A stretch of DNA of 22,989 nt from a virus, in the IMG/VR virus record IMGVR_UViG_3300034947_000032, positions 1 to 22,989 of that record. The stretch is one strand, 5' to 3'. The position numbers and the translations under genes were made by a program. This document shows positions 6,130 to 22,989 of this stretch, one piece after another. The notes beneath the pieces are model-generated. The model ran no database searches. It was not told the DNA's origin and saw only the letters and a program-made list of their open reading frames with translations. The number at the start of each line of letters is the position of its first letter. Positions within the stretch are counted from its first letter, which is position 1.

Positions 6130-6791
6130 TCTATCACGTTTATTCCACCTACAAACCGAAGGATCCTAATACGGCCAGGAGAATGCGTCTGGCTCAAATC
6201 ACCTGGTCAAAGCAACCATGGGAAGAAATACCAATCACTGATGACGAGGTCAGATGCTACAGGGATCACATGGGCCAGGTGCCCTATGTCAGGGATCTAA
6301 TAGCCAAAGGAGTCGCCGGCAAAAAGCCTGAAGACATCATCGTATTCACCAACTCAGACATCTGCGTTGCGGAGGCCTGCAGCTTCAAGGTGGTCATGGC
6401 TTTTCAGAGCATCGATGCCGCCTATTGCTTTCGCCGGGATTTCCACAAATTCACTGAGCCAATTCCAGATGACCAGATCAAGAGGGGCTACCCATATTGC
6501 GGCAGTGACTTCTACGCTTTCAGGGTTGGATGGTGGCTCGAAAACGGCCCAGACTTTCCAGACATGCTCCTCGGCCGCGAGGCCTGGGACTCGGTTTTGC
6601 GGATCCTCATCGAAATGACGCACCCAAAACAGAACGTCACCCTGCACAACCTGATCTATCATGAGCGACATGCATCGGTCTGGGAGAACCCACAAAATCG
6701 CAGGAGGATACCGAGCCAGCTCCTCAATATCAGTGTCGCCAGGGATTGGATGTTGAGTTTCGGGCACAATCCCCGCAGCATCGGAATATGA
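6126..6791 (+). CDS. GT-A-like hypothetical protein, probable glycosyltransferase
   Basis: A 221-aa protein beginning at the ATG that overlaps the stop of the preceding glycosyltransferase by 4 bases (ATGA) and ending in another ATGA overlap with the FkbM methyltransferase. The N-terminus 'MIYHVYSTYKP' and 'EDIIVFTNSDICVAE' (acidic 'NSD' turn after a beta strand) resemble a nucleotide-sugar binding GT-A core. 'GSDFYAFRVGWW', 'PDMLLGREAWDSVLRILIE' and 'NLIYHERHASVWE' resemble conserved segments seen in uncharacterised GT-A-like proteins. The tight coupling on both sides argues that the three products act in one pathway. I cannot assign a sugar. The frame also opens 25 codons further upstream, inside the previous gene, but the coupled ATG is the better start. 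Confidence 0.65.
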   Translation: MIYHVYSTYKPKDPNTARRMRLAQITWSKQPWEEIPITDDEVRCYRDHMGQVPYVRDLIAKGVAGKKPEDIIVFTNSDICVAEACSFKVVMAFQSIDAAYCFRRDFHKFTEPIPDDQIKRGYPYCGSDFYAFRVGWWLENGPDFPDMLLGREAWDSVLRILIEMTHPKQNVTLHNLIYHERHASVWENPQNRRRIPSQLLNISVARDWMLSFGHNPRSIGI

Positions 6792-7450
6792 GTCTTAACT
6801 CCCTGCTCGACCTCGAAGAGATCCACGGCCTTTTGATTCCCAGGAAAGACACATCCGCCTGCAAGCACATTCGCAAAACAGGCAAGCTGGCCTGGAATCC
6901 GGCTTTCACCGGACTCAAAGTTTGGAATGAGCTTAAACCCGGGTCAGTTGTATTTGATATTGGCGCATTCATTGGCGACACAGCCCCGGTTTTTCTCGAT
7001 CGACAATGCGAGGTCCACGCCTTCGAGCCTAAGCCGGATATGTTTGTCTGCCTTCTCCACAACTGCCCTAGAGCCTTTTGCTACAATCTCGCAATCGGTG
7101 ACGGCACCAGGTTCGACCTCTCCAATAAAACCGGGAACATGGGCGGCCAATCACTGCTACCTGGCCAGCGTTACAGCATCCGCCTCGATGACCTGAACGT
7201 GGAACGGCTCGACGTCCTCAAGATCGACGTGGAAGGCTTTGAGCTGAAGGTGCTCGAGGGGGCCGCTGAAACCATCAGGCGGTTTCATCCGATTATCCAC
7301 ATCGAACTCAACGTCAATGGACTAAAGCGTTTTGGCGCGACCCCTGAAATAACCCGCAAAATGCTGGCGAATTTGGGCTACCTTAGCCAGCAGGTGGTGC
7401 ATCATCACGATGAGGGGTATAACAGTCATTGCGACATGATCTGTCGTTGA
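6788..7450 (+). CDS. FkbM-family SAM-dependent methyltransferase
   Basis: A 220-aa class I methyltransferase. 'SVVFDIGAFIGDTAPVF' (53-69) is the SAM-binding motif and 'EVHAFEPKPDMF' the second-strand acidic site. 'LDVLKIDVEGFELKVLEGA' is the signature of the FkbM family, whose known members O-methylate sugars and small molecules and are frequent in polysaccharide clusters. Translation is coupled to the upstream GT-A-like gene by an ATGA overlap, so I infer it methylates the glycan built by the two preceding products. The frame opens 14 codons earlier inside the preceding gene; the coupled ATG is preferred. The protein is of ordinary length for the family, with no visible loss of key residues. 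Confidence 0.88.
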   Translation: MSLNSLLDLEEIHGLLIPRKDTSACKHIRKTGKLAWNPAFTGLKVWNELKPGSVVFDIGAFIGDTAPVFLDRQCEVHAFEPKPDMFVCLLHNCPRAFCYNLAIGDGTRFDLSNKTGNMGGQSLLPGQRYSIRLDDLNVERLDVLKIDVEGFELKVLEGAAETIRRFHPIIHIELNVNGLKRFGATPEITRKMLANLGYLSQQVVHHHDEGYNSHCDMICR

Positions 7451-7454
7451 GGCC

Positions 7455-7886
7455 ATGAGTAAACTGGATCCGAAGAATCTTCCCGAGAACATCCGGCGGT
7501 GCATGGAGCCCCGGGTCCGCAAGGAGCTCAAAACACCCACGGTTGACGAAGCCCTCGAAAAGCAGGACCGCAAAGAGGAACTGGAAATGCACCGGCAGCT
7601 CGAGGCCTATTGCAACGTGGCCGACATTGCGATCGTCCACAGCCGCACCGACAAGAAGTCCACGACAAAGAAAGGCACCCCTGACTTTGTCCTGCTCTGG
7701 AACGGCCGAGGCTGCGCGATCGAACTCAAAGGCCCCCACGGCAAGCTGACCGATGAACAGAAAACGACCATTCAAGCATGGATGGAAAAATCCAAAGTTC
7801 CATGCCTGGTGTCTTCAAACCTGGCCCAGGCAATCGATTGGGCCCGAAAACAACTAGGAATGCCGCCTAGAGGTACTTCGGTGTGA
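7455..7886 (+). CDS. VRR-NUC domain nuclease (PD-(D/E)xK superfamily)
   Basis: A 143-aa protein whose central part matches the VRR-NUC fold: an acidic helix residue near E44, then 'KGTPDFVLLWNGRGCAIELKGPHGKLTDEQ', with D77 in G-x-P-D and E90-x-K92 as the catalytic triad and the trailing D/Q typical of phage VRR-NUC proteins. These are structure-specific or Holliday-junction-type nucleases common in phages. The start follows GAGG in the short gap after the FkbM gene, so it may be the last gene of that transcript although it belongs functionally to DNA metabolism. The 3' end overlaps the convergent HTH gene by 20 bp. Confidence 0.87.
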   Translation: MSKLDPKNLPENIRRCMEPRVRKELKTPTVDEALEKQDRKEELEMHRQLEAYCNVADIAIVHSRTDKKSTTKKGTPDFVLLWNGRGCAIELKGPHGKLTDEQKTTIQAWMEKSKVPCLVSSNLAQAIDWARKQLGMPPRGTSV

Positions 7887-8202
7887 CCGTTTCTGAGATC
7901 TCCTGAATGACTTTTCGCTGGATCGCTCGAACAGCAACTTCCGTTTCCCAGCTTTCGCCATTTCGGAATCTAGCCCTGGCACCAATAGCCTCGCCCTTCC
8001 AGATCCGATACTGGACCTTGCTTTTGCTAATACGCAAAATCTCGGAAATGCGCTTGGTGCTCACCCCTGCCCTAGCCAATACCACGCATCGGACCTCTTC
8101 CACAGCCTTCTCGAATGTGGCAGTTTCCCGAGTTATTGGGAACCTGATCTGATGCCGGTTAGCCTTGCCATTGCCAGACTTCTGGCTTTTGCTTTTTGGC
8201 AT
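7867..8202 (-). CDS. Helix-turn-helix phage protein, putative regulator
   Basis: A 111-aa basic protein from the ATG at 8202, chosen over a GTG two codons upstream because AAGGTG sits five bases before it. Residues about 46-66 ('VSTKRISEILRISKSKVQYRIWKGE') form a clear helix-turn-helix. The rest is a short N-terminal basic arm and a helical C-terminus with 'GARARFRNGESW'. I recall similar small HTH proteins in many phages without known function; they are thought to be transcription regulators, and a small-terminase role cannot be ruled out. It lies 13 bp downstream of the C2H2 protein gene on the same strand, so the two form an operon reading from the divergent control region at 8576-8721. 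Confidence 0.7.
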   Translation of the reverse strand: MPKSKSQKSGNGKANRHQIRFPITRETATFEKAVEEVRCVVLARAGVSTKRISEILRISKSKVQYRIWKGEAIGARARFRNGESWETEVAVRAIQRKVIQEISETVTPKYL

Positions 8203-8215
8203 ACTCACACCTTGT

Positions 8216-8575
8216 TCACACCTTCGCTGCCGCCATCATGGCAATGGCCAGTTTGTCTAGATCCAGACCGCATCGAGGGCAATGGTGCAATTCAACCGAA
8301 TGACCATTTTGGAACACGTCGATGCGACGACGGGGAAGTCTGCCTGATTTTAGCTGAGCCCTCCGATCGCGCTGGTATTGCCGGCGACGTTCCTTCTGTT
8401 CTTCGGTGAGCGGTTTTCTGCCGGTGGTGACAGTTGGTGCATCCTGGTGCAAATTGGTGCCACCGTTTTTGATGTTTCCATGCACTCGTCCTACGTGCAT
8501 CCGAATGGCCATTTCGGCCTCCTTTTTAGTGCGCTTCTGGAATTCCTTCCCGCACTGTTCACAACTTATTCGCAT
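8216..8575 (-). CDS. C2H2 zinc-finger protein with second CxxC knuckle
   Basis: A 119-aa protein. The N-terminus 'ISCEQCGKEFQKRTKKEAEMAIRMHVGRVHG' has the C-x2-C...H-x4-H spacing of a C2H2-type finger. The middle 'LTEEQKERRRQYQRDRRAQLKSGR' is a strongly basic helix suited to nucleic acid binding. The C-terminus carries 'VELHHCPRCGLDL', a second metal knuckle in which two His precede CxxC. Phages often carry such small zinc proteins near regulators; the target is unknown. It is the first gene of the leftward unit and its start faces the divergent intergenic region. Its stop is 13 bp from the start of the HTH gene. Confidence 0.75.
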   Translation of the reverse strand: MRISCEQCGKEFQKRTKKEAEMAIRMHVGRVHGNIKNGGTNLHQDAPTVTTGRKPLTEEQKERRRQYQRDRRAQLKSGRLPRRRIDVFQNGHSVELHHCPRCGLDLDKLAIAMMAAAKV

Positions 8576-8721
8576 AACTGTGGTTTTGACTGTTAATAAC
8601 TATTTTCGCGGCGGAACTTCCGCCACCCAAAGACCTTGCCTGGAAGTGTATATACAAAGCAAGCCAAATCATTACTTCCCGACTTGTCAGCCTGAAAATA
8701 GGGGGCTGTAATTCGAGCCCT
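8576..8721. promoter_or_regulatory. Divergent control region with GTATATAC palindrome and start-site hairpin
   Basis: This 146-bp AT-rich gap separates two divergent units that both start with DNA-binding proteins. It contains the 10-bp perfect palindrome TGTATATACA (8647-8656), whose core recurs at three other non-coding sites. No good -35 box sits 17 bp from it on either strand, so it may be an operator rather than a -10 box. Just before the plus-strand gene, ATAGGG-gg-CT at 8698-8707 pairs with AGCCCTAT at 8716-8723, placing the start codon in a hairpin arm. The promoters for both directions presumably lie here. Confidence 0.5.
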
Positions 8722-8883
8722 ATGCCGAGAAAACCCAAGACCGAAACCAAGAGTTTTCGATTCCCACCCAAGATCTGCCGCTGGCTTGAAAGGAAGAAAA
8801 AGGAGAGTGGTAGAACCCACACCTGGATCCTCCTCGATGCGCTTGCTGCCAAGTACCCAGAGGTTCAAAATCTAAAGCCATGA
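8722..8883 (+). CDS. Small ribbon-helix-helix-like DNA-binding protein
   Basis: A 53-aa frame. 'ETKSFRFPPKICRWLERKKKESGRTHTWILLDALAAKYPE' fits the ribbon-helix-helix pattern: a beta strand with alternating residues (SFRF), a helix A, the turn SGRT, then helix B. Such proteins are dimeric repressors or antitoxins. Its stop overlaps the next gene's start (ATGA at 8880), so the two are translationally coupled and co-transcribed. A hairpin covers its start codon (see the control region), which may be an operator for its own product. There is no strong Shine-Dalgarno. No partner toxin is visible, so a phage repressor role is likelier than toxin-antitoxin. Confidence 0.65.
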   Translation: MPRKPKTETKSFRFPPKICRWLERKKKESGRTHTWILLDALAAKYPEVQNLKP

Positions 8884-9083
8884 CGGATCAAACCAACCAA
8901 CCGAACGAGGACCGACTGCTGTCTTATGGAGAGACTGCAGAACGGATGGGAATTTCTGAATCGACCCTTCGCCGCAAAGTGCGGGAGGGCAAAATCCCAG
9001 TCATCGACATGGGGCATCAGATCAAACGCTTTCACTGGCCGACTGTCCTAAAGGCACTCAACCAGGGGAAATCCTCCGAATAA
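8880..9083 (+). CDS. Excisionase-like / MerR-type HTH protein
   Basis: A 67-aa protein with 'LLSYGETAERMGISESTLRRKVREGKIPVIDMGHQIKRFHWPTVLKAL', the winged-helix pattern of HTH_17/excisionase proteins: a helix-turn-helix ending 'STLRRKVREGKIP', a short wing, and the 'R-h-x-x' strand followed by 'VLKALN'. Members act as directionality factors for integrases or as small transcription regulators. No integrase is visible in the window, so a regulatory role is at least as likely. It is coupled to the RHH gene by ATGA and followed by two hairpins before the RecT-like gene. Confidence 0.75.
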   Translation: MTDQTNQPNEDRLLSYGETAERMGISESTLRRKVREGKIPVIDMGHQIKRFHWPTVLKALNQGKSSE

Positions 9084-9131
9084 TTCACAGGTGGATCTGT
9101 GAACCTCAATCGAGGGGGCAAAACGCCCTCG
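9084..9131 (+). promoter_or_regulatory. Two tandem hairpins in the leader of the RecT-like gene
   Basis: TTCACAG (9084-9090) and CTGTGAA (9097-9103) form a perfect 7-bp stem with a 6-nt loop. Directly after, CGAGGG-gg-C (9111-9119) pairs with GCCCTCG (9125-9131) with a small bulge. Neither is followed by a T-run, so these do not look like ordinary terminators. The first could also be a dimeric operator. They fill the 73-bp gap before the RecT-like start, which lacks a clear ribosome site, so a role in RNA-level control is possible. Confidence 0.4.
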
Positions 9132-9156
9132 GAACCGACTCCTACTCCCAACGACT

Positions 9157-10206
9157 ATGAACGAAATCGCAATCTACAAGAAAATGGAAGACCCGCTGGC
9201 CGCTATCGACCGAGTGGGCGAATTCTTCACCAGGTCAGGCATGTTTGGCTGCACCAGAACCGAGCAGGGCAAGGTGCTGGCCATGGTGTGCATGACCAAG
9301 AACATGACACCCGATGAGGTCGCCGCCAGGTACCACCTGATCGACGGCAAGATCTCCAAGAAGTCCAGCACCGTCCTGGCCGACTTCCGCCGGCTTGGAG
9401 GCAGGCACAAATGGATCGACGGTGGCTTTGACGGCAAGAAAGCCACGGCCGAATTCACCTTTGAGGGAAACACGATCGAGGTCAGCTTCAGCATCGAAGA
9501 TGCGAAACGCCAAGGCCTGGTCAAAAAGGATTCTGGCTGGGAAAAGACACCAGCCAACATGCTCCGCGCCCGGGTCATCACAACGGCCGTTGGAATGCTC
9601 GCGCCTGAAGTCTGGGCTGGCAGCGAAGAAGACGAGGGAGTCACAACCGTGACCGCCGAGCCGGGACTTGATCTCGGTCAATCCGAGCCCTCGAAGCCGA
9701 CCGCGCAGGCAACCGGCAAGGTTGTCGATGCCGAGGTCGTGGAACCCGAGAAACCCAAGGAAATCAAAACCGAGGAGGAGGAGCTGGCCGATCAAGGCCT
9801 CGCGCCGGCGACGCCAAAACCCAAGAAGGCAAAGAAGGCCAAGCCGACCATCGAGCCTGGTGACGACGGGGACGAACCGATCCCTCCACCGCAAAAGACC
9901 ATCGAGCCGGAAGCGGCCGCCGAGCCGGCACCCTCGGTCGAACCTGGGCCCGGGCCCGAGGCAGAAACCCTGAGCCCCGACCTGGTCGATCAGATGGGCC
10001 ACATCATGCAAGGCAACTTCGTTAAGGTTGCCAATTGGATGATTGAGAACCAATGGATCGAGCCTGCGAGCAAGGAGCTCAAGACCGAAGCCCAGGCTGG
10101 AGCCCACCTCCAGAAGACACTTCCAACCCTAAGCCCCGCCAAAGCGAAAAAAGTACTAACCCAAAAGATGGCTTTCATGCGAGCCATCGAATCAATCGAA
10201 CCATGA
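9157..10206 (+). CDS. RecT-like single-strand annealing protein with long charged linker
   Basis: A 349-aa protein. Residues about 1-165 look like a RecT-type recombinase core: 'CMTKNMTPDEVAARYHLIDGKISKKSSTVLADFRRLGGRHKWI' and 'GWEKTPANMLRARVITTAVGMLAPEVWAG', the latter close to the RecT 'W..xPxxMLxxRAxxxxxRxxxPE' signature. RecT proteins anneal single strands during phage recombination. Residues about 175-275 are a low-complexity Pro/Lys/Glu linker (runs such as KPKKAKKAKP), then an extra helical C-terminal domain of about 75 residues follows ('VDQMGHIMQGNFVKVANWMI...'). The start lacks a good Shine-Dalgarno; the ATG at 9184 is an alternative. The stop overlaps the next gene by ATGA, coupling it to the nuclease, its usual partner. 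Confidence 0.78.
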   Translation: MNEIAIYKKMEDPLAAIDRVGEFFTRSGMFGCTRTEQGKVLAMVCMTKNMTPDEVAARYHLIDGKISKKSSTVLADFRRLGGRHKWIDGGFDGKKATAEFTFEGNTIEVSFSIEDAKRQGLVKKDSGWEKTPANMLRARVITTAVGMLAPEVWAGSEEDEGVTTVTAEPGLDLGQSEPSKPTAQATGKVVDAEVVEPEKPKEIKTEEEELADQGLAPATPKPKKAKKAKPTIEPGDDGDEPIPPPQKTIEPEAAAEPAPSVEPGPGPEAETLSPDLVDQMGHIMQGNFVKVANWMIENQWIEPASKELKTEAQAGAHLQKTLPTLSPAKAKKVLTQKMAFMRAIESIEP

Positions 10207-11261
10207 ACAAACTCAAACCCACAGCAAGCAGATATAGACCGTCCGCATTGCCCATGCTCGCCCAGTGCCCCAAGTTTGAAGGCGCACCGAGCGAGTACAC
10301 GGATGAGGGCAAAAAACGCCACAACGTCCTGGCCGAGTACCTGAAAGGCAACAAAAAGGTGCTCGAGGAGGTGAACGAAAACTTCAGGGAAGACCTGGAG
10401 TGGGCACTTGAATACATCGATATCAATGGCCCCAAACTCGATCATCCGACCATCATCGAAACCATGCAAGAGGGGGTGCTACCAAACGGCCTGCCGATCA
10501 GAGGCACACCGGACGTAGTAATCGGACCAGAGGTCTTTGACCTTAAGTGGAGGCCTCGAGACTACCGTCCCCAAATGGCAGCCTATGCTTACATGATTTT
10601 GGATAGCCAAGAGGCGATCACCGAAATCAGAACCCACCTCCTTTTCGGGAGCACCCAAACCGTGCGAAAGCACAAATGGACCAAGGAGTCAGCCTGGGAC
10701 TGCATCCGCGAAATCATCGCGAACGTAGAGTCAGCCTGGGCAGCTCCTATACCATGCGAATATTGCGGATGGTGCGCCAAGCGACCGGACAAGTGCGAGG
10801 CACTGATCCAGCAGGTGAACATCGCCCTGGCCAGTAACCCAGAATGGAACCTGCCGCAATGGCACTCTTCGGAAATAAAGACCGCCGAGCAAATGGGCAT
10901 GGCATTACGGATTGCCAGAACGCTGGCTGATTGGTGCGAGTCGGTCGAATATCACGCCAAAGAAATGGCGATCAAGCAGGGCATGGTGCCCACTGGCTTT
11001 GCGATCCAAAACCGGCAAGGAAACCGGTTCATCGATGACGTTTCGGCAGCGTTCAAATCCAGCACTTTGCCGCAAGACGAATTCATCAAGGCCTGCGCGG
11101 TTAAGCCCAGGATTCTCTTTGACACTTACGCCGCATTCCATGGGATGGCCAAGAAAGCGGCCGAACGCGAACTCGAGCAGAAGTTGGGCGCGATCATGCA
11201 ACGCAAGGCCCCGTCCTCTTTTCTCGTCACCGAAAGAACCTCCAAAAAGAAAGACAAGTAA
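10203..11261 (+). CDS. Cas4/RecB-like PD-(D/E)xK nuclease, probable Fe-S protein (DUF2800-like)
   Basis: A 352-aa protein, likely the exonuclease partner of the RecT-like protein. 'RYRPSALPMLAQCPKFEG' places a Cys at 22. H40 in 'KKRHNVLAEYL', 'RGTPDVVIG' (D104), 'VFDLKW' (D113-x-K115) and 'YRPQMAAYAYMI' (Q124, Y128) give the RecB-family H...D...D/ExK...QxxxY motif set. 'PCEYCGWCAKRPDKC' (C185, C188, C191, C198) with C22 fits the split Cys set of Cas4/AddB-type iron-sulfur nucleases. Residues after about 200 form a helical domain as in phage DUF2800 proteins. The start overlaps the previous stop (ATGA), and only two bases separate it from the next gene. Confidence 0.82.
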   Translation: MNKLKPTASRYRPSALPMLAQCPKFEGAPSEYTDEGKKRHNVLAEYLKGNKKVLEEVNENFREDLEWALEYIDINGPKLDHPTIIETMQEGVLPNGLPIRGTPDVVIGPEVFDLKWRPRDYRPQMAAYAYMILDSQEAITEIRTHLLFGSTQTVRKHKWTKESAWDCIREIIANVESAWAAPIPCEYCGWCAKRPDKCEALIQQVNIALASNPEWNLPQWHSSEIKTAEQMGMALRIARTLADWCESVEYHAKEMAIKQGMVPTGFAIQNRQGNRFIDDVSAAFKSSTLPQDEFIKACAVKPRILFDTYAAFHGMAKKAAERELEQKLGAIMQRKAPSSFLVTERTSKKKDK

Positions 11262-11263
11262 CC

Positions 11264-11767
11264 ATGCCAGTTTTCCAAGATTCCCAATCCGCCTATGAGG
11301 TCGTGCCCGAAGGCGATTACATCCTTTGCGTGTACGAATTCACCATGGACTTTTCCAGCGGGAAAAAGACCTCCGGTGCTGAACGCTACAATATCGTGTT
11401 CAACATTGAGGGGACAAAGTCCAAGCTCAAGGAAGTCTTGATCGACCATGAATCGACGTTATGGAAAATCGATACGTTCCTGAAATCAGCCGGCATCCGA
11501 AGCCTTAAGAAAGGCCAGTCGTTTCACTTCCTCGAGGACAAAGCCGAGGAGCTGGGAGTGCCCTGGATCAATCCGATGGGGCTGCGTTGCTGGGCCCAGG
11601 TCATCCATGACAAATACACCTCCGAGCGATCCGGCCGCGAGGTGACGAAGAACAAGGTCGGAACCTTTTACACCGACCGCGAGGTTCTTAAACCCGACCC
11701 AGAATTGCGCGGTAAGCCGACCGGCACTGCCGACAGCAATGGAGAGCAGAAGAAAACTCCGTTCTAA
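11264..11767 (+). CDS. DUF669-like, probable single-strand DNA-binding protein
   Basis: A 167-aa protein resembling phage DUF669 proteins, which sit beside recombination genes and are thought to bind single-stranded DNA. The N-terminus 'VVPEGDYILCVYEFTMDFSSGKKTSGAERYNIVFNIEGT' is the beta-strand OB-like start seen in this group, followed by 'RCWAQVIHDKYTSERSGREVTKNKVGTFYTD', a beta-hairpin typical of the second half. The last residues (...GEQKKTPF) end in Pro-Phe like bacterial SSB tails but lack the usual acidic run. It is located between the nuclease and the helicase, two bases after the former and one base before the latter. Confidence 0.6.
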   Translation: MPVFQDSQSAYEVVPEGDYILCVYEFTMDFSSGKKTSGAERYNIVFNIEGTKSKLKEVLIDHESTLWKIDTFLKSAGIRSLKKGQSFHFLEDKAEELGVPWINPMGLRCWAQVIHDKYTSERSGREVTKNKVGTFYTDREVLKPDPELRGKPTGTADSNGEQKKTPF

Positions 11768-13275: not shown

Positions 13276-13827
13276 ATGAAACCCATCAATGGCATCTATC
13301 CCACCCAGTGCGTGACCTTCCCGAGATCCGGCCACATCATCCTCCAGCGAGTGCTGAAAAAGTATTTCGGCGACAAACTCAACTGGACCGATGTCTACAA
13401 ATGGCCCGAGCGCGGGTTTGCGAAGAACAAGGAATGCAACCTGGAGAAAACCCATGATTTCGACCTGGACGTCCCAATCAAACCGGATCGGTTGTATTTG
13501 GTCCAAATCAGAAATCCATTCAATGCCTTGGCCGGATGGAAAGTCATGCACCTGGACGAAGGCGTGACGAAGAAGGATTGGCGGCCGTGGTTCCGGCAGA
13601 AGGCCAGATATTGGATGCAATTCACCCACAAGTGGCTTTACAGCCCAGTGCCCAATCGCCTGGTCGTGCCTTACGAAAAGCTCACCGCCAATCCGGTCTA
13701 CGCTTTCAGCCGGATCATCGTTTTCATGACCAAGGCCGAACCCGACCTGGCCAAGCTCACGGTTGCGTTAGGAGATGAGAAATTGAGCCCCCGAGAATCG
13801 AAGCCGGTTCCCTATGACACAATCTAG
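13276..13827 (+). CDS. Sulfotransferase-like protein
   Basis: A 183-aa protein with the pattern of PAPS-dependent sulfotransferases. 'CVTFPRSGHIILQRVL' (12-27) carries the PRSG-type loop that binds the 5'-phosphosulfate. 'RLYLVQIRNPFNALAGWKV' resembles the 3'-phosphate site ('RxPxxxxxSxxx'), though the usual Ser is replaced by Ala/Gly. 'NRLVVPYEKLTANPVYAF' is the common 'vxYExLxxxP' element. It is short for the family (usually about 250-300 aa), so part of the lid or acceptor region is missing. It lies 4 bp after the helicase and overlaps the next gene by 14 bp, so it is expressed with the recombination genes. Target unknown; phage, host glycan and lipid are all possible. Confidence 0.72.
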   Translation: MKPINGIYPTQCVTFPRSGHIILQRVLKKYFGDKLNWTDVYKWPERGFAKNKECNLEKTHDFDLDVPIKPDRLYLVQIRNPFNALAGWKVMHLDEGVTKKDWRPWFRQKARYWMQFTHKWLYSPVPNRLVVPYEKLTANPVYAFSRIIVFMTKAEPDLAKLTVALGDEKLSPRESKPVPYDTI

Positions 13828-14095
13828 CTATTACACCATGCAGGACTGCGAGAAGACTCTCGCGGAAATGGTTGCCTGCGCTCGGCGCGAGTTCAACATG
13901 CGGAAGCGGGTTTACCCTCGATGGGTCGAGGGAGGCAGGATGACTGCCGAAAAAGCCAACCATGAAATCGAAACCATGGAATGTATCTACTACACACTTT
14001 TCCGCCTAAAAGAACTGCAGGAGGCCTCCGAGGAAATGATCGCCCTGGAGGAAAAACGCCAAAAACAAAACGAACAAACCCAACTCAAGTTATGA
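13814..14095 (+). CDS. Small conserved phage hypothetical protein
   Basis: A 93-aa, mostly helical, charged protein. The middle 'ACARREFNMRKRVYPRWVEGGRMTAEKANHEIETMECIYYTL' matches a pattern I recall from short phage proteins of unknown function ('RExxMRxxVYPRWVxxGRM...A..EIxxMexI'). The C-terminal 25 residues are a likely coiled coil rich in Glu, Lys and Gln. It overlaps the sulfotransferase-like gene by 14 bp and the DHH gene by ATGA, so it is a middle member of a tightly packed operon. There is no catalytic signature. Confidence 0.75.
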   Translation: MTQSSYYTMQDCEKTLAEMVACARREFNMRKRVYPRWVEGGRMTAEKANHEIETMECIYYTLFRLKELQEASEEMIALEEKRQKQNEQTQLKL

Positions 14096-15057
14096 ATGGA
14101 CAAAAAGTCTACGTGCTCTATCACGGCAATTGTTACGATGGATTCGGTGCCGCCCTGGCGGCATGGATCCACTTCAACAACCAAGCCATTAACGCCGAAT
14201 ACATCCCGGTTCTCTACGGCAAGGAACCGCCCAAGATGGAGAAGCTGTCTGACGTCTTCATCGTTGACTTCAGCTATCCGCCGGCGGTCCTGCTGGAGAT
14301 CGCCCAGGACAAAAACACAGTGGTGGTCCTAGATCATCACGCAACGGCCGAAAAGGATCTCTCCTTTGAATCCTGGCTGGCAGCCTTGGGCCCAATGCAG
14401 ACGATCAATCTTGCCAAAAAAGATGCGACCGGCTGGCTGCAGTGCAAAAATATCCACCTCAAGTTCGATATGACCAAATCCGGCGCGGTCATGGCCTGGG
14501 AGTATTGGCACCCCACGCTCAAGGTGCCGAAGATGTTCCAGTACCTGCAGGACCGCGACCTTTGGCAGTTCAAACTGCCACATTCGGAAGCGATCAGCAT
14601 TTACATGCGGACACTCCCGTTCGACTTCGGGGTCTGGAGGCATGTCATGAGCGAGATGGATAGTGAGATCGGGAAACGAGAGATTGTCTCTGCCGGCGTC
14701 GCCTGCCTCAAGCTCACCAGGCAGATGGTGGACATGATGGCTGACCATGCGCGGATGATGCTCTTCGACATGCGCAACGATCCTCCCAGGATCGTGCCGG
14801 CCGACTTCGAGCCCCAAGAAGGCCAGTATCTAGTGCCGGTCAGCAACGCGACGGTTTTCTTTTCCGAGGTCGGCAATGAGCTTTTGTTGCGGCACCCCCG
14901 AGCTAAGTTCGCAGCCTATTATCTCGATCGCAAAGACGGTATGCGCCAGTGGGGCCTGCGATCGCGGGATGACTTCGACTGCTCGGCCATTGCCAAGGCC
15001 TTTGGTGGAGGTGGCCACAAACAATCCAGCGGGTTTGTTGAACCCATCGGGGCATGA
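14092..15057 (+). CDS. DHH-family phosphoesterase (RecJ / oligoribonuclease-like)
   Basis: A 321-aa protein with the DHH set of metal-binding motifs: 'YHGNCYDGFGAA' (motif I, D16), 'VFIVDFSYPP' (motif II, D59), 'VVVLDHHATAE' (motif III, D81-H82-H83), then 'AWEYWHP...YLQDRDLW' (motif IV). The C-terminus 'AKAFGGGGHKQSSGF' is the DHHA1 substrate-binding GGGHxxASG signature. Known relatives are RecJ single-strand exonucleases, nanoRNases and cyclic-di-nucleotide phosphodiesterases. In a phage, end-trimming of DNA or degradation of short oligonucleotides or signalling nucleotides are both possible. Start ATG overlaps the previous stop (ATGA); an open frame 37 codons upstream is shadow of the previous gene. 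Confidence 0.88.
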   Translation: MNGQKVYVLYHGNCYDGFGAALAAWIHFNNQAINAEYIPVLYGKEPPKMEKLSDVFIVDFSYPPAVLLEIAQDKNTVVVLDHHATAEKDLSFESWLAALGPMQTINLAKKDATGWLQCKNIHLKFDMTKSGAVMAWEYWHPTLKVPKMFQYLQDRDLWQFKLPHSEAISIYMRTLPFDFGVWRHVMSEMDSEIGKREIVSAGVACLKLTRQMVDMMADHARMMLFDMRNDPPRIVPADFEPQEGQYLVPVSNATVFFSEVGNELLLRHPRAKFAAYYLDRKDGMRQWGLRSRDDFDCSAIAKAFGGGGHKQSSGFVEPIGA

Positions 15058-15857: not shown

Positions 15858-15911
15858 GTGCAAGACAAAAACCAAAAACCAGAAAGAAGTCTCCATGAAA
15901 ATGAAGATTAA
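15858..15911 (+). CDS. Possible 17-aa leader peptide frame with strong ribosome site
   Basis: GGAGGGG (15847-15853) is the best Shine-Dalgarno in this part of the window. The start codon at proper spacing is GTG (15858), which opens a 17-codon frame ending inside the next gene at 15911. That next gene starts at 15895 in another frame. This arrangement fits a leader frame that couples translation of the 199-aa protein. Alternatively the GGAGGGG is chance and the downstream gene uses its own weak AGAAG site. Confidence 0.25.
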   Translation: MQDKNQKPERSLHENED

Positions 15912-16494
15912 AATCAAACTGTTCGAGGAGCTTCTGGCTACTAAACCGGACAATCCAGATGTGTTTGCCGATTACGTGGCCAGCAAACACCCCGATGGTC
16001 ACCCTGCCAAAGATGAACTCGAAAATGCCGAGAATGTAGAACAGCGAGGCACTTCGGTTTTTCACCGGCAGGAGGACTGCCCGGGGATCTACGACTACCA
16101 AATCAAGGGCTTCTTCAAAGATGCCTGTGGTGCCATGAACCGTTTCGATAAGGAATTTCGGGACGGCATGGACAAGCTGTCGGCTTACAAGAGTAAGATC
16201 GACGGGTGCATCTTTGTCTTCCCGCGATTCATCCCCATCACAATACCGGAGGGCGGTCAAATCAGTCTTTGCGAGCGGCCGCTCATTGCGGACACCGCCC
16301 AAGGTCGCCGTGTTTCGGTTGCCCGAAGCGAAACCGTTCCACCTGACAGCACTCTCGAGTGCGAGATAGAATGGTTCACCAAGGAATTGGGCCGGTGGAT
16401 TCAACTCTGGCTCGATTACGGCAAGCTCCGAGGCCTCGGCCAATGGCGCAATAGCGGCAAAGGTCGATTCACTTGGGGCCAACTCGATGGCTAA
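15895..16494 (+). CDS. Conserved phage hypothetical protein preceding the repeat tract
   Basis: A 199-aa protein. The conserved-looking core is 'CPGIYDYQIKGFFKDACGAMNRF' (about 61-83), 'SKIDGCIFVFPRFIPI', and 'CERPLIADTAQGRRVSVARSETVPPDSTLECEIEWF' (about 123-160), a pattern I recall from hypothetical proteins of other phages ('ERPLRAxTAQGxRVALARSExVP'). No catalytic signature is visible; the beta-rich C-terminal half suggests a binding or assembly role. Two Met codons lie close together at the start (15895 and 15901). It is the last recognisable gene before the 1.5 kb pentamer tract. Whether the two belong together is an open question worth checking by synteny. Confidence 0.75.
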   Translation: MKMKIKIKLFEELLATKPDNPDVFADYVASKHPDGHPAKDELENAENVEQRGTSVFHRQEDCPGIYDYQIKGFFKDACGAMNRFDKEFRDGMDKLSAYKSKIDGCIFVFPRFIPITIPEGGQISLCERPLIADTAQGRRVSVARSETVPPDSTLECEIEWFTKELGRWIQLWLDYGKLRGLGQWRNSGKGRFTWGQLDG

Positions 16495-18020
16495 GGCACG
16501 TCTGGGCGAGGCGTCACGGCGCGTACCTGAGCAAAGCAAAGGCACTGAGGTGCGCAACACCGTGGACCTACGTTTGGCATAGCCGCGATTCGCATGGCAC
16601 TGGCCAGGCTTTGGGATGAACCGTAACCCACAACGCAAAGCAAAGGCTGCTCCTCGCACCGATCTGCCTAGGCAGGGCGGCGAGCGGCTCTGGGTGGCGG
16701 CGGCATGGTCTGGCGCAAAACACCACAGCCTCGCGAAGGCAAAGCGGCCCGGGTCGACGCGACGCGATGGCAGTCCCTCTCATTGCTTAGCAACGGCGAT
16801 GCCCCGCGACACGACGAATCGCCACGGCACTTCAGCGCACAGCCCAGCCGAGCGCGGTTCCGGCGATGCAACTCCCCGCAAAGCCATGCCCAGTATCGGC
16901 TATGCAGAGACTCGCAGGGCGATGGCCGCGCATGGTTCCGTTCCGCCACGCTGGGGCTGGGCCGGTCTTTGCTCCGCGATACAAGGCATTGGGCAACGCA
17001 AAGCACCCCAACGCTCGTCCGCGCACCGGCTCAGTGCAGCTCCGCTACACGGGGCCTTGGCAACGCTAAGCATAGTTTCACGATGCGAAGGCGTGGCCTT
17101 GACTAGCAGGGCAGTGGCGAAGCCAAGCACGGCGAAGCGTAGTTTCGGCTATGCAGAGACTCGCAGGGCGATGGCCGAGCATGTCCCGGCCCATCTTGCC
17201 AACGCCCAGCAAAGGCACAGCTCAGCAAAGCCTTGCGAAGGCAGCCCTCGGACTGCTAGGCGATGGCGTGGTAACGCGAAGAATTGCCCCGGCACAGCTC
17301 AGCCCCGATTGGCATTGCCCCGATGGGCAGTGGCATGGCCAGTCCCGACAACGCGAAGCGATGGCGTCGCCACGCCGATCCTTGACCAGCACAGCAAAGG
17401 CGGGGCTCAACGTGACAATGCGGTGGCACGGTTCAGAACCGCTGGGCGAAGGCAAAGCGGCTCATCACTCCGCGACGGCACGGCACGGCAGTACGGTGCT
17501 AAGCAACGGCCAGTCATCGCGACGCCTGTTACAGCACCACTCAGTACCGCAACGGCGACGCTACGTGAATCCCCGCCTTGCAAAGGCAGAGTCCGGCTAA
17601 GCCTCGCACGACCTCGGCGACGGCACGTCAAGGCAAGTCGAAACCTCGCGCCGGCATGGCCGCTCGAAGCCAATCAATGCGATGCAGAGGCATTGAGTTG
17701 CTGCGCCCGTCCGAGCCAGTCTGAGCATTGCCAAGGCGAAGCGGGGCCCAGCGAATCGGTACCAAGCGATGGCAAGGCCAGGCAAGTCACGCCATGTCAA
17801 TGCGAAGGCCGAGCGGGGCGGGGCCCTGATGGCAAAGCAAGGGCTTTGCATCTCACGTCGAAGCAAGTCCAGGCCTGGCGTTGGCCTGGCTGGGTAGCAC
17901 ACTACGGCCCAACGCAAAGGCGCAGTCGTGCGACGCCGCACGGGTAGTTGCTCGGCGGTGGCGCGGCTGGGCAAAGCAGGGCACAACAAAGCGACGGGTG
18001 GGTTCATCCCCGCTCGTCGC
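16495..18020 (+). repeat. 1.5 kb non-coding tract of degenerate ~5-nt GC-ending words
   Basis: Between the stop at 16494 and the ribosome site at 18026 the sequence changes character. It is a patchwork of short words that mostly end in GC or GGC with roughly 5-nt spacing: AAAGC, GAAGC, AATGC, GATGGC, TATGC, CTTGC, AAGGC. By eye I count 15 GCAAAG and about 10 GCGAAG on the plus strand, while CTTTGC is rare, so the pattern is strand-specific. Frames across it are open only because stop codons are scarce in this composition; their translations are Ala/Arg/Ser/Pro-rich with no domain. It contains one 33-nt exact direct repeat and many small inverted repeats. Possible roles are a structured RNA, a replication origin beside the primase gene, or a recombination or packaging element; none is shown. 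Confidence 0.75.
16896..17177 (+). repeat. 33-nt exact direct repeat inside the tract (copies 16896-16928 and 17145-17177)
   Basis: The two copies, beginning TCGGCTATGCAGAG and ending GGCGATGGCCG, are identical over 33 nt and extend to about 39 nt with one mismatch. They are offset by 249 bp. Elsewhere the tract only repeats short words, so this is either a recent internal duplication or a conserved element such as a protein-binding or RNA-structure module. Confidence 0.85.
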
Positions 18021-18036: not shown

Positions 18037-20145
18037 ATGGACGTATACGAACAAGCCAGAAAATATCTCAAAGCGATTCCGCCGGCAGTCAGCGGACAAC
18101 AAGGACATTCCCAAACTCTCAACGCCGCCCGGGCTTTGGTGGTAGGTTTCAACCTGCCCGAAAACGAGGCCATGGCATTGCTGCAGGAGTGGAACCAAAG
18201 CTGCCAGCCTCCATGGAGCCAGCGCGAGCTCCAGCACAAGATCACTGAGGCGCAGAATAAACCTTTCGACAAACCCCGGGGCTACCTTCTGACCCACCGA
18301 TCCACTCGACCTGGTCGACCCTCTTACATCGCACCTGGTGCGGCGTGGCGACCCGAGGCACCGAAGTTCGAGTATGACTTAAGCGAGGCCTCCAAGATCG
18401 ATTTACCCAAGGGCAAGCTCGACGGGTTCGAGCAGCTCCTCAAAACCTGCTTCCGACCAGGTGAAGGCGTGTCGGTTATGAGTGGCATCACCGAAGACGG
18501 TCTGGTCGGCTGCGATCCCCGAGGTGGCTGTGTGCTCCTGCAGGAGGAGTGGCTGGCCAAGCTCGAGAAGTATGGGGACATCAATGCCATGTATTATCGC
18601 CTGGGCGGTCCTCCGGTCGGCGTTTATATCAGAGTCAACCCCATGAACCCCGAGGGGCGCGGCCGCGACGACGACGTCACGGTTCACCGGCACTGCCTTT
18701 TGGAGTTCGACAAGATCCCACTGCGCGAGCAGTGGCTCCTTTTCACCAAGAGCAACCTGCCATGCGCGGCCGTTCTTTACTCGGGAAAGAAGAGCCTCCA
18801 CGCCTGGGTCAAGATCGATGCCAAGGACCGGAAGGAATACGACGAGCGGGTCGCGATCGTCTACAACCACTTTGCCAAGTATGAACCGGACACGCACAAC
18901 AAGAATCCCTCCCGGTTCTCCCGCTGCCCCGATGCCAAGCGTGGCGACACAAAGCAGATGCTCCTGGCCACTGACATCGGCTGCAGCTCCTTCAGTGAAT
19001 GGAGCCGGCACCTCCTGGTCCAGGGCATCGGCAAGACTTACGACGCGCAGACGATCCGGCTCTATCGGCCCGAGGACGACAGTCAAACCGTGGCCGGCAA
19101 TGGCTGGCTGCGCAAAGGTGGATCCGCGATCCTGGTCGGCCCCTCGGGGATCGGCAAGTCGAGCCTGGGCCGGCAGATCGCCATGGCCTGGTCGATCGGC
19201 AAACCGGTCTTCGGCGTGACCCCACCTGGTCCGCTCAAGGTTTTGATGATCCAGGCCGAGAACGACCTGGCCGACATGCACGACATGGACATCGGAATTT
19301 ACCGTGGCCTGGAGATCCTCGAGCATGAACCCTCCTTGAAGATGGTGGACGCTAACCTGGTGACCAACCACAACGTGAGTGACACCGGCGAGGCCTTCAT
19401 CCATTCCCTGCAGAAGCTGGTGGACCATCATGAACCCGATGTGGTGGTGGTGGATCCTCTGCTCTCCTTCATCGGCGATGACATTTCCAAGCAGGAGGTG
19501 GTCGGCCGGTTCTGCCGCAACTGGCTCAATCCGATCCTGACCAATTCCGGCGTGGCTTTCCTGGGCATCCATCACACCGGCAAACCGCCCAAGGAGTATC
19601 AGCCCTCGAGCAAGAAGCCCCGGGCCCAGCGATCCATGGCCGAGTGGAGTTATGTGATGATGGGCTCCAGCGAGCTGACCAACTGGGCCAGGGCGGTGAT
19701 GATCCTCAACCAGCTGCCCGACCAGACCTATGAGCTGATCTTTTCCAAGCGCGGTTCCCGCGCCCAGGCGGTCCATCCCAACGGGGATCCGACCCAGATT
19801 GTGCTGCTGCAGCATTCCAAGAGTGACATCTTTTGGATTCAGACCGATCCACCCGAGGAAGTGGCCTCGGCCACAACCACCGGCGAGGTCGCGGTCAAGA
19901 GCCGCAAGCTGGGTCCAGCGGCCGAGCGGATCGCGGCCGCCAACCTGCATGAGTTCACCGCCCTGATTCCACCCGAGGGAGAAACGCACACCTCGATCTG
20001 GAGCCGGCTGCGCACGTATGCGGCCAATGTCCTGGGCATCGACGTTCAGGAAACCAACGCCAAGAAGGCGATAGCCCTTTTGGTGGACAACAAGAAGCTC
20101 GGCAAAAACGAGCAAGGTCTATACACCAAAGGATCGAACAGTTAA
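18037..20145 (+). CDS. Primase-helicase: PriCT/AEP-like primase region plus RepA-like AAA ATPase
   Basis: A 702-aa replication protein with an ideal ribosome site (AAGGAG 18026-18031, 5-nt spacing). Residues about 1-75 ('ALVVGFNLPENEAMALLQEWNQSCQPPWSQRELQHKI') match a PriCT-type primase-associated domain. Residues about 200-310 look like a primase core of archaeo-eukaryotic type: 'HRHCLLEFDKIP', 'AVLYSGKKSLHAWVKID' (from about 244; S253-x-H255) and 'NPSRFSRCPDAKR'. Residues about 355-600 are a RecA-fold hexameric helicase like RepA: Walker A 'GPSGIGKS' (368-375), Walker B 'DVVVVDPLLS' (468-477) and 'FLGIHHTGKP'. The C-terminus ends with a small helical region. The fusion would prime and unwind phage DNA at the fork. 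It starts directly at the end of the pentamer tract. Confidence 0.87.
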   Translation: MDVYEQARKYLKAIPPAVSGQQGHSQTLNAARALVVGFNLPENEAMALLQEWNQSCQPPWSQRELQHKITEAQNKPFDKPRGYLLTHRSTRPGRPSYIAPGAAWRPEAPKFEYDLSEASKIDLPKGKLDGFEQLLKTCFRPGEGVSVMSGITEDGLVGCDPRGGCVLLQEEWLAKLEKYGDINAMYYRLGGPPVGVYIRVNPMNPEGRGRDDDVTVHRHCLLEFDKIPLREQWLLFTKSNLPCAAVLYSGKKSLHAWVKIDAKDRKEYDERVAIVYNHFAKYEPDTHNKNPSRFSRCPDAKRGDTKQMLLATDIGCSSFSEWSRHLLVQGIGKTYDAQTIRLYRPEDDSQTVAGNGWLRKGGSAILVGPSGIGKSSLGRQIAMAWSIGKPVFGVTPPGPLKVLMIQAENDLADMHDMDIGIYRGLEILEHEPSLKMVDANLVTNHNVSDTGEAFIHSLQKLVDHHEPDVVVVDPLLSFIGDDISKQEVVGRFCRNWLNPILTNSGVAFLGIHHTGKPPKEYQPSSKKPRAQRSMAEWSYVMMGSSELTNWARAVMILNQLPDQTYELIFSKRGSRAQAVHPNGDPTQIVLLQHSKSDIFWIQTDPPEEVASATTTGEVAVKSRKLGPAAERIAAANLHEFTALIPPEGETHTSIWSRLRTYAANVLGIDVQETNAKKAIALLVDNKKLGKNEQGLYTKGSNS

Positions 20146-21851: not shown

Positions 21852-22061
21852 GTGTCCGAAAACGAAAAACCCGTGGATCCCACGGAACTGAGCCCCGAAA
21901 CGGCTGCCAAAGCGGCCCCGACACCGGAAAAGGAACCCGAACCGGCCGCGCCGGAACCCGAATGCTGCGACTCGGCCCCCGAAACGGCAGACGGATCGGC
22001 ACCCTGCCCCGGGCCCCACACCGCCGAGGAACCGGCCCAGGAGCAACAACCTGAGCAATAA
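21852..22061 (+). CDS. Acidic Pro/Glu/Ala-rich low-complexity protein
   Basis: A 69-aa frame from a GTG at 21852, preceded by AAAGGA at 6-nt spacing; a GTG at 21810 inside the hairpin is an inferior alternative. Composition is dominated by Pro, Glu and Ala, with 'CC' and a further Cys in the middle, and it is likely disordered. No family. It could be a tail of a larger function or a small anti-host protein; nothing in the sequence decides. It ends just before a parS-like site and a strong hairpin. Confidence 0.5.
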   Translation: MSENEKPVDPTELSPETAAKAAPTPEKEPEPAAPEPECCDSAPETADGSAPCPGPHTAEEPAQEQQPEQ

Positions 22062-22066
22062 GAGCC

Positions 22067-22080
22067 GTTCCACATGGAAC
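22067..22080. promoter_or_regulatory. parS-like inverted repeat
   Basis: GTTCCACATGGAAC has 6-bp arms and differs at one central base from the parS core GTTCCACGTGGAAC; with its flanking bases it matches 14 of 16 positions of the general TGTTNCACGTGNAACA pattern (counting Ns). It lies 5 bp after a stop codon. It may be a real partition site or simply another hairpin near the operon end. No ParA/ParB gene is in the window. Confidence 0.3.
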
Positions 22081-22083
22081 AAT

Positions 22084-22119
22084 GGGGTGTGGGAATCTTA
22101 CCGCACTTTCCCACACCCC
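22084..22119 (+). terminator. Strong 12-bp hairpin, likely end of the replication/accessory transcript
   Basis: GGGGTGTGGGAA (22084-22095) and TTCCCACACCCC (22108-22119) are perfectly complementary around a 12-nt loop, 22 bp after the last gene of the run. The following bases (TCCTTACTCGTTACT) are T/C-rich but not a clean U-tract. It is the strongest terminator-like stem in the window. Confidence 0.6.
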
Positions 22120-22183
22120 TCCTTACTCGTTACTCGCTCACCGGACTAATCCAGACCAAAAAATCTCAAACTAGCCCACCCCC

Positions 22184-22387
22184 ATGCCCGACCCAGACCC
22201 AGAAAGACGGGTCAAACTCTGCGCCTGGAAAGAGTCCAAATTCTCCGATCCGCCCTCCGATGCAATCCTCCCCCACGAAATCCCCAAAAGCCTCTCCTTC
22301 TGCGACTGGATGCGCAACCAACGGGAGGCATTCGAGTTTCTCCACCCCAATAGCCTAAAACCCAAACGAAAACGAAAACGAAAATGA
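22184..22387 (+). CDS. Small hypothetical protein with KRKRKRK tail
   Basis: A 67-aa protein. The body 'RRVKLCAWKESKFSDPPSDAILPHEIPKSLSFCDWMRNQREAFEFL' has paired Trp and Cys residues, and the last seven residues alternate Lys and Arg, encoded by a CGAAAA/CGAAAC repeat. The tail could bind nucleic acid. The stop overlaps the next start (ATGA). There is no clear ribosome site; the upstream bases are C-rich (CCCACCCCC). Family unknown. Confidence 0.55.
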   Translation: MPDPDPERRVKLCAWKESKFSDPPSDAILPHEIPKSLSFCDWMRNQREAFEFLHPNSLKPKRKRKRK

Positions 22388-22689
22388 ACTCACACCCCCA
22401 AAAAACCCCGCCCCTCCTCACCATCACCATCAACCACCCAGGCACCGGCAAATCCGAACTCAAACTCCCCGTCCCCACCAAACCCCCTCGCCCCAATACC
22501 TACTTCGCCTCCCACGAAGGCAAACACCGTGTCGTCCTCCTCACCCCAGGCTGGCGCGGCGAAGGCAAAGCCCAAATCCCCGACCCCCAAATCCATGGCC
22601 TGGACTTCGATACCGCTGCCCGACTCCTCGCCGAAATCGCCCTGGCCATCCTCCGCATCGAACCCACCAATCAGAACCCCTCAACCTAA
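22384..22689 (+). CDS. Hypothetical protein, C-rich coding strand
   Basis: A 101-aa protein coupled to the previous gene by ATGA. 'PLLTITINHPGTGKSELKLPVPTKPPRP', 'FASHEGKHRVVLLTPGWRGEGKAQIPDPQIHGLDFDTAARLLAEIALAIL'. The GTGKSE string resembles a P-loop by chance; the protein is too short and lacks the other ATPase motifs. A short beta-rich domain with a terminal helix is likely. Together with the preceding gene its plus strand is strikingly poor in G and rich in C, unlike the replication genes. The last gene before the non-coding right end. Confidence 0.6.
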   Translation: MNSHPQKTPPLLTITINHPGTGKSELKLPVPTKPPRPNTYFASHEGKHRVVLLTPGWRGEGKAQIPDPQIHGLDFDTAARLLAEIALAILRIEPTNQNPST

Positions 22690-22703
22690 CCCAAAAACCC
22701 CGA

Positions 22704-22926
22704 GGGTCAGCTCGAGGGTCAGCTACCATTTTTTTTCCTGACCCGATTTCGCGTAAACCCTTGTAGCATTAGGGGTCAACTGAGGGTCAACTGTATATAC
22801 GTGTAATGATTGCCCATTTTTCCTAAGTTCTTGATTTTTAATACCCCATCATCGGGTCAGCATACGGTCCCCCTCCCTCCCCTAAAGGGGAGAGGGGAGG
22901 GGGGGCCCCCCGTAATTGCTTGACCC
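22704..22926. repeat. GGGTCA iteron-like repeats in a non-coding control/origin region
   Basis: After the stop at 22689 no gene is visible up to the window end. GGGTCA or its complement occurs at 22704, 22716, 22739 (inverted), 22773, 22784, 22854 and 22921 (inverted). Two pairs are spaced 12 and 11 bp apart, that is, about one helical turn, within CGAGGGTCAGCT and (A/G)GGGTCAACTG contexts. This is typical for iterons bound by a replication initiator or for clustered repressor operators. An AT-rich stretch with T8 (22729-22736) and a further AT-rich part (22811-22847) lie between the repeats. Confidence 0.6.
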
Positions 22927-22972
22927 CTGACGATGAACCCTACCCTTTTGCACCCCTGAACCCCGTATATAC
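22793..22972. promoter_or_regulatory. Two GTATATAC palindromes (22793-22800 and 22965-22972)
   Basis: Both copies of the 8-bp palindrome lie in the non-coding right end, one directly after the fifth GGGTCA repeat and one just before the window edge, where CGTATATACAAAA resembles the copies at 8648 and 15326. The last could be a -10 box (TTTTGC 22946-22951, 16-bp spacer, TATACA), a weak match. The first is followed by GTAATGA (22803-22809), also present near the other copies. Confidence 0.5.
22868..22911. repeat. Pyrimidine/purine mirror tract with G-runs
   Basis: A C/T run (22868-22883) is followed by an A/G run (22884-22905) with G-runs of 4, 4 and 7 and then six C. CCCC-TAAA-GGGG (22879-22890) forms the centre of a hairpin that continues imperfectly. 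The purine strand has enough G-runs for an intramolecular G-quadruplex. Confidence 0.6.
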
Positions 22973-22989
22973 AAAACCCGCCCCCGCCC

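Follow-up and report, generated by a model that had tools for sequence, protein, structure and literature searches.

In CRISPR systems, RAMP protomers assemble side by side along a guide RNA. VIPR, a phage system for RNA-guided recognition of DNA and of a kind known only since 2026, was described in a preprint in April of that year (PMC13142463). According to its main text, VIPR is comprised of a phage RAMP protein (Vipr) and vrRNAs of 9-16 YNNGG words, in which the NN bases pair with double-stranded DNA with a 1-nt skip (PMC13142463). The system is used against competing phages, and CRISPR has been proposed to descend from it; a vap accessory gene accompanies VIPR 'typically', not always, and for other VIPR types the main text mentions 'a related consensus' and staggered or overlapping arrays (PMC13142463).

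The locus considered here lies in a 22,989-nt stretch of viral DNA (IMGVR_UViG_3300034947_000032), the whole of which is referred to as the window. A guide-RNA-like array of pentamer words (GYNNN) occupies positions 16495-17990 of its plus strand. This tract begins directly after the stop codon (16492-16494) of the gene at 15895-16494 and ends at about 17990, where it is followed by a hairpin (17991-18020) and by the start of a primase-helicase gene at 18037. Identity at lag 5 within the tract was 0.417 (z=12.9 against 300 dinucleotide shuffles), the autocorrelation was also raised at lags 10, 15, 26, 31 and 36, and the Fourier spectrum peaked at 5.17 nt, with G, A and C as the carriers; Fourier analysis gave no comparable periodic signal in the rest of the window. 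The period amounts to 31/6, not to 5, in that most words are of 5 nt and about every sixth is of 6 nt: a Viterbi parse yielded 294 words, 245 of them 5 nt and 44 of them 6 nt long. GCAAAG occurs 15 times on the plus strand and twice as its reverse complement (1.5 in dinucleotide shuffles, maximum 5), and GCGAAG 10 times and not at all, respectively (1.0 in shuffles, maximum 4). An earlier note on this DNA, made from the letters alone, had described a strand-biased 1.5-kb pentamer tract, had counted the two words by eye at about 15 and about 10, and had held that the words are not tandem copies of one unit; each of these points was borne out, with the lag-5 signal well above that of the shuffles.

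One word block is present twice in the tract as a direct repeat (D6; 16878-16934 and 17127-17183, both on the plus strand; 57 nt, 86% identical). Repeat analysis of the window found no identical repeats of the CRISPR repeat-spacer kind in the tract, an Rfam search gave no match in the window, and BLASTN of the tract against phages returned short chance matches only. At the far end of the window (22001-22989) there is a strong C-over-G skew (GC skew -0.43 to -0.46), together with short tandem repeats.

The gene immediately upstream of the tract (15895-16494, plus strand) encodes a 199-aa RAMP/Cas7-like protein, the Vipr candidate, which is predicted to have the RAMP fold and a G-loop. An AF2 model of the protein, with 81 homologues, had a pLDDT of 87.3. 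Foldseek gave Csm3 and type VII Cas7 as the best PDB matches (E about 1e-7), and a match in BFVD with 48% identity is named 'Cas system-associated RAMP superfamily protein'. The profile of the protein matched PDB Cas7 (E=1.8e-4) and Csm4; the segment that aligns to both is the conserved C-terminal GLGQWRNSGKGRF, which we take to resemble the glycine-rich loop (G-loop) of RAMP proteins. A DHH phosphoesterase (PHROG 4771) is encoded further upstream of the Vipr gene, at 13981-15057, and a relative (L003) has a similar protein at the corresponding place; this gene is not a conserved neighbour across the clade.

Relatives of the locus were sought with both flanking proteins. The primase-helicase retrieved two related loci only, one of them 100% identical. 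The 199-aa protein found five relatives at first; a search with an alignment raised this to 241 among viruses and also gave ten loci on contigs of bacterial genomes, the bins of which include Verrucomicrobiota, Clostridia, Saccharibacteria, Endomicrobiellum and others. Eighty of the 241 viral relatives were kept, and 92 loci were scanned blindly for the lag-5 signal. A tract of at least 350 nt, the threshold used, was present in 82 of the 92, and 89 of the 95 tracts adjoin the gene, most directly downstream of it and the others directly upstream. The RAMP gene stays beside the tract in the relatives while the gene after the tract varies, and among the neighbours across relatives no conserved accessory (vap) or second gene was found beside the RAMP gene. 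Two related 73-kb phage contigs (L055 and L057) carry three arrays each, between which there are word-sized and 31-nt-sized indels (L055:2750-8700).

The word grammar was derived by fitting an unsupervised 5-state HMM separately to each tract. The result was G-Y-N-N-N, with an extra G after approximately one word in six, and the G sits on the strand of the gene whether the tract lies upstream or downstream of it. Words start with GC in GC-rich phages and with GT in AT-rich phages, the grammar being otherwise alike; as AT-rich phages use GT, it is the G that is fixed, and the pattern is a property of one strand. Viterbi parsing of all tracts produced 9433 five-nt words and 1903 six-nt words. 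The consensus of the latter is GCAAHG, consecutive ones are usually 5-7 words apart across all tracts, and their cores are mostly spaced by 26, 31, 36 or 41 nt, i.e., 1 mod 5. It is the recurrence of this 6-nt word that gives rise to the 31-nt superperiod.

Near-identical phages allowed the change of the tract to be followed word by word. One relative (L009; IMGVR_UViG_3300035161_000033) shares 99.5% identity with the window over 13.2 kb, the differences numbering 68. Between positions 15000 and 19000 there are 19 differences, every one of them inside the tract, and 17 of these are in two plus-strand blocks: a word block at 16903-16948 with 8 substitutions, and three adjacent words at 17272-17284 that have been replaced, with 9 substitutions in 13 nt. 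When near-identical pairs were pooled, the substitution rate was 0.019 at the G, 0.029 at the extra G, 0.041 at the Y and 0.081-0.084 at the three free positions; the scaffold G is conserved and NNN is hypervariable. Changes in these pairs cluster in blocks of a few words, many of the indels are multiples of words, and such pairs with swapped word blocks are direct material for the question of how the putative guides are rewritten. Elsewhere in the set, a block of about 16 words occurs twice in nearly identical form, and partly a third time, within one array (L094:1200-1825).

The hairpin that follows the array in the window (17991-18020, plus strand) is strong, with a 12-bp stem (z=-3.05), and is a possible 3' tail or terminator, although it has no U tract. 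Strong hairpins are found 3' of the array in several relatives as well, not in all. Across arrays, hairpins at the array end were in excess over control stretches (p=0.0036), the excess being carried by the downstream arrays. The many small stems that the earlier note had envisaged are not the pattern; the hairpin after the tract is the sole clear structure in the window.

These observations make it very probable that the tract serves a VIPR-type system as its guide array, with the 199-aa protein encoded upstream as the Vipr. From the published VIPR, as set out in the main text (PMC13142463), we infer transcription, formation of an RNP, pairing with DNA and repression. The array would be transcribed on the strand of the gene, probably as one long RNA that ends at the hairpin, and this RNA might then be processed or be used as overlapping guides. 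Vipr protomers would sit side by side along it, with one to each 5-nt word, and would hold the conserved G(Y), so that the variable bases of successive words could jointly pair with double-stranded DNA that belongs to a competitor, whether a phage or a satellite; once bound, the Vipr-RNA complex would block transcription. The half-helical-turn period proposed in the earlier note is better read, following the VIPR model in the preprint's main text (PMC13142463), as one putative protomer per 5-nt word. The GCAAHG words placed about every 31 nt may act as punctuation that sets the register, marks guide ends or provides processing sites; this role is a pure guess.

The composition of the middle variable base agrees with that of codon position 2 (L1 distance 0.06), as would suit targets that lie in coding DNA and are read in phase, but such agreement is missing at the other two positions. 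When ten pairing rules were applied to a pool of related loci (2.1 Mb), none yielded a target, and the guides showed no excess over word-shuffled guides there. Pattern scans of viral contigs with the duplicated window block and with the window/L009 block gave no matches, and no guides common to different phages rose above the null. A scan with the repeated block of L094 did give two matches; since both fall in unrelated genes and neither extends, they were dismissed as chance. Empty searches of this kind, in the related-loci pool and the viral contigs, would be expected if the array RNA were a decoy or an anti-CRISPR, i.e., a long scaffold that is coated by the RAMP protein, or that soaks up host Cas proteins, and that has no sequence-specific target; a phage-encoded RAMP and one long array without separate tails would also suit such an RNA. 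A decoy, however, would need no hypervariable triplets, whereas the NNN positions change in word blocks while the G is kept, as expected of retargeted guides, and the nearest characterised relative is described in the main text of the preprint as a DNA-targeting system (PMC13142463). A decoy is consequently regarded as improbable.

The earlier note had left two readings side by side, a directional RNA and a protein-coated DNA element such as an origin beside the primase-helicase. Replication genes are indeed near, and periodic G-Y steps could mark DNA. Against this, it is the upstream RAMP gene that relatives keep and the gene after the tract that differs between them; the signal follows the strand of the RAMP gene on either side; and GY becomes GT in AT-rich relatives, so the pattern is kept on one strand only. 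An origin or coated DNA element is therefore very unlikely, and what stands of that proposal is a directional, probably protein-bound RNA. Least probable of all is a protein-coding repeat, even though an ORF at 16616-17947 is open for 443 codons and is still open in L009. This ORF has no Pfam or PHROG match and differs from its counterpart in L009 by 9 non-synonymous and 4 synonymous codon changes, a reading frame is not kept through words of 5 and 31 nt, and relatives have stops in all frames of the tract. The tract is thus not a conserved coding gene in relatives, the outcome that the earlier note had seen as fatal to its proposal; it bears no sign of coding, and that note was right to suspect a class of element that gene callers overlook. 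Reading the triplets as codons was also tried: the decoded triplets of the window were protein-like and stop triplets were depleted, but TA is depleted at Y-a pairs too, so the depletion was treated as a general dinucleotide bias and the reading was set aside. A tblastn search of the decoded peptide against phages found nothing.

A putative guide array with an adjoining candidate Vipr invites comparison with VIPR type II, which is known from Escherichia phage SUSP1 and a Pseudomonas fulva prophage. Common to both systems, as far as the main text describes type II, are a phage RAMP of about 20 kDa with a G-loop and adjoining pentamer tracts on the plus strand, in which some positions are fixed and others hypervariable (PMC13142463). 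In the SUSP1 genome (KT454805) a RAMP gene matches that of the window in size, and the likely Vipr, vap1 and GGYNN arrays were located; relatives of SUSP1 were also found, one of which (L108) has five arrays of 12-18 GGYNN words. The SUSP1 system uses GGYNN words in separate vrRNAs of about 100 nt with a tail, and has a vap1 gene, whereas the window clade uses GYNNN words with GCAAHG about every 31 nt in one long tract, and no conserved vap gene was found in it. Profile similarity between the Viprs of the two clades is weak (hhalign P about 0.003, probability 10-12%) and greatest at the G-loop.

Three phages carry both kinds of Vipr. Besides a Vipr of the window clade, L072 encodes one that is clearly of the SUSP1 type (profile E=9e-53), and the additional Viprs of L078 and L067 are SUSP1-like but more distant (E about 1e-6); in each of the three, a GGYNN-rich tract follows the SUSP1-like Vipr. 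The GG share of the window-clade tract is 0.34 in L072 and 0.42 in L078, against 0.69-0.84 in the GGYNN tracts, and the far tract of L067 is intermediate (0.54). With two clades and two tract types in L072 and L078, the grammar goes with the protein. In L072 the region 6275-11330 contains Viprs of both clades, with a different array grammar for each, and a vap1-like gene after the SUSP1-type Vipr; a ROOL RNA (Rfam RF03087, 319 bits) is found at 13280-13871 of the same contig, a few kb from the two VIPR-like systems.

The class 1 CRISPR RAMPs (Csm3/Cas7 of types III and VII) resemble the 199-aa protein in predicted fold and G-loop. The window system differs from CRISPR-Cas in that it has neither identical repeats nor a conserved second gene beside the RAMP gene, and the combination of a repeat-spacer array with several cas genes is absent from it. 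With VIPR it shares a single RAMP protein with a predicted RRM core and G-loop, a mainly phage or prophage origin, and an adjoining pentamer tract; it departs from the GGY/NN consensus of VIPR, since the window and its relatives read GYNNN. As the similarity to the SUSP1 Vipr peaks at the G-loop and is weak outside it, the system is classed as a variant of VIPR and not as a plain member. The grammar of GYNNN with GCAAHG is absent from the main text of the preprint, and the clade may correspond to one of the seven types already published; among the other types mentioned there, 'staggered' and 'overlapping' arrays would fit its long continuous array (PMC13142463).

The clade has its own word grammar, GYNNN with GCAAHG, as opposed to the GGYNN of the SUSP1 type. 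More tentatively, this grammar might be a distinct code with three readable bases per word, not two, and with GCAAHG about every 31 nt as register or guide ends, and one long RNA might supply many guides that overlap and that change target through block swaps. The GYNNN/GCAAHG clade is a large branch with a different word rule from that of SUSP1-type VIPR, and the two together provide a natural comparison, even within single phages, for how a RAMP protein sets the word of its RNA.
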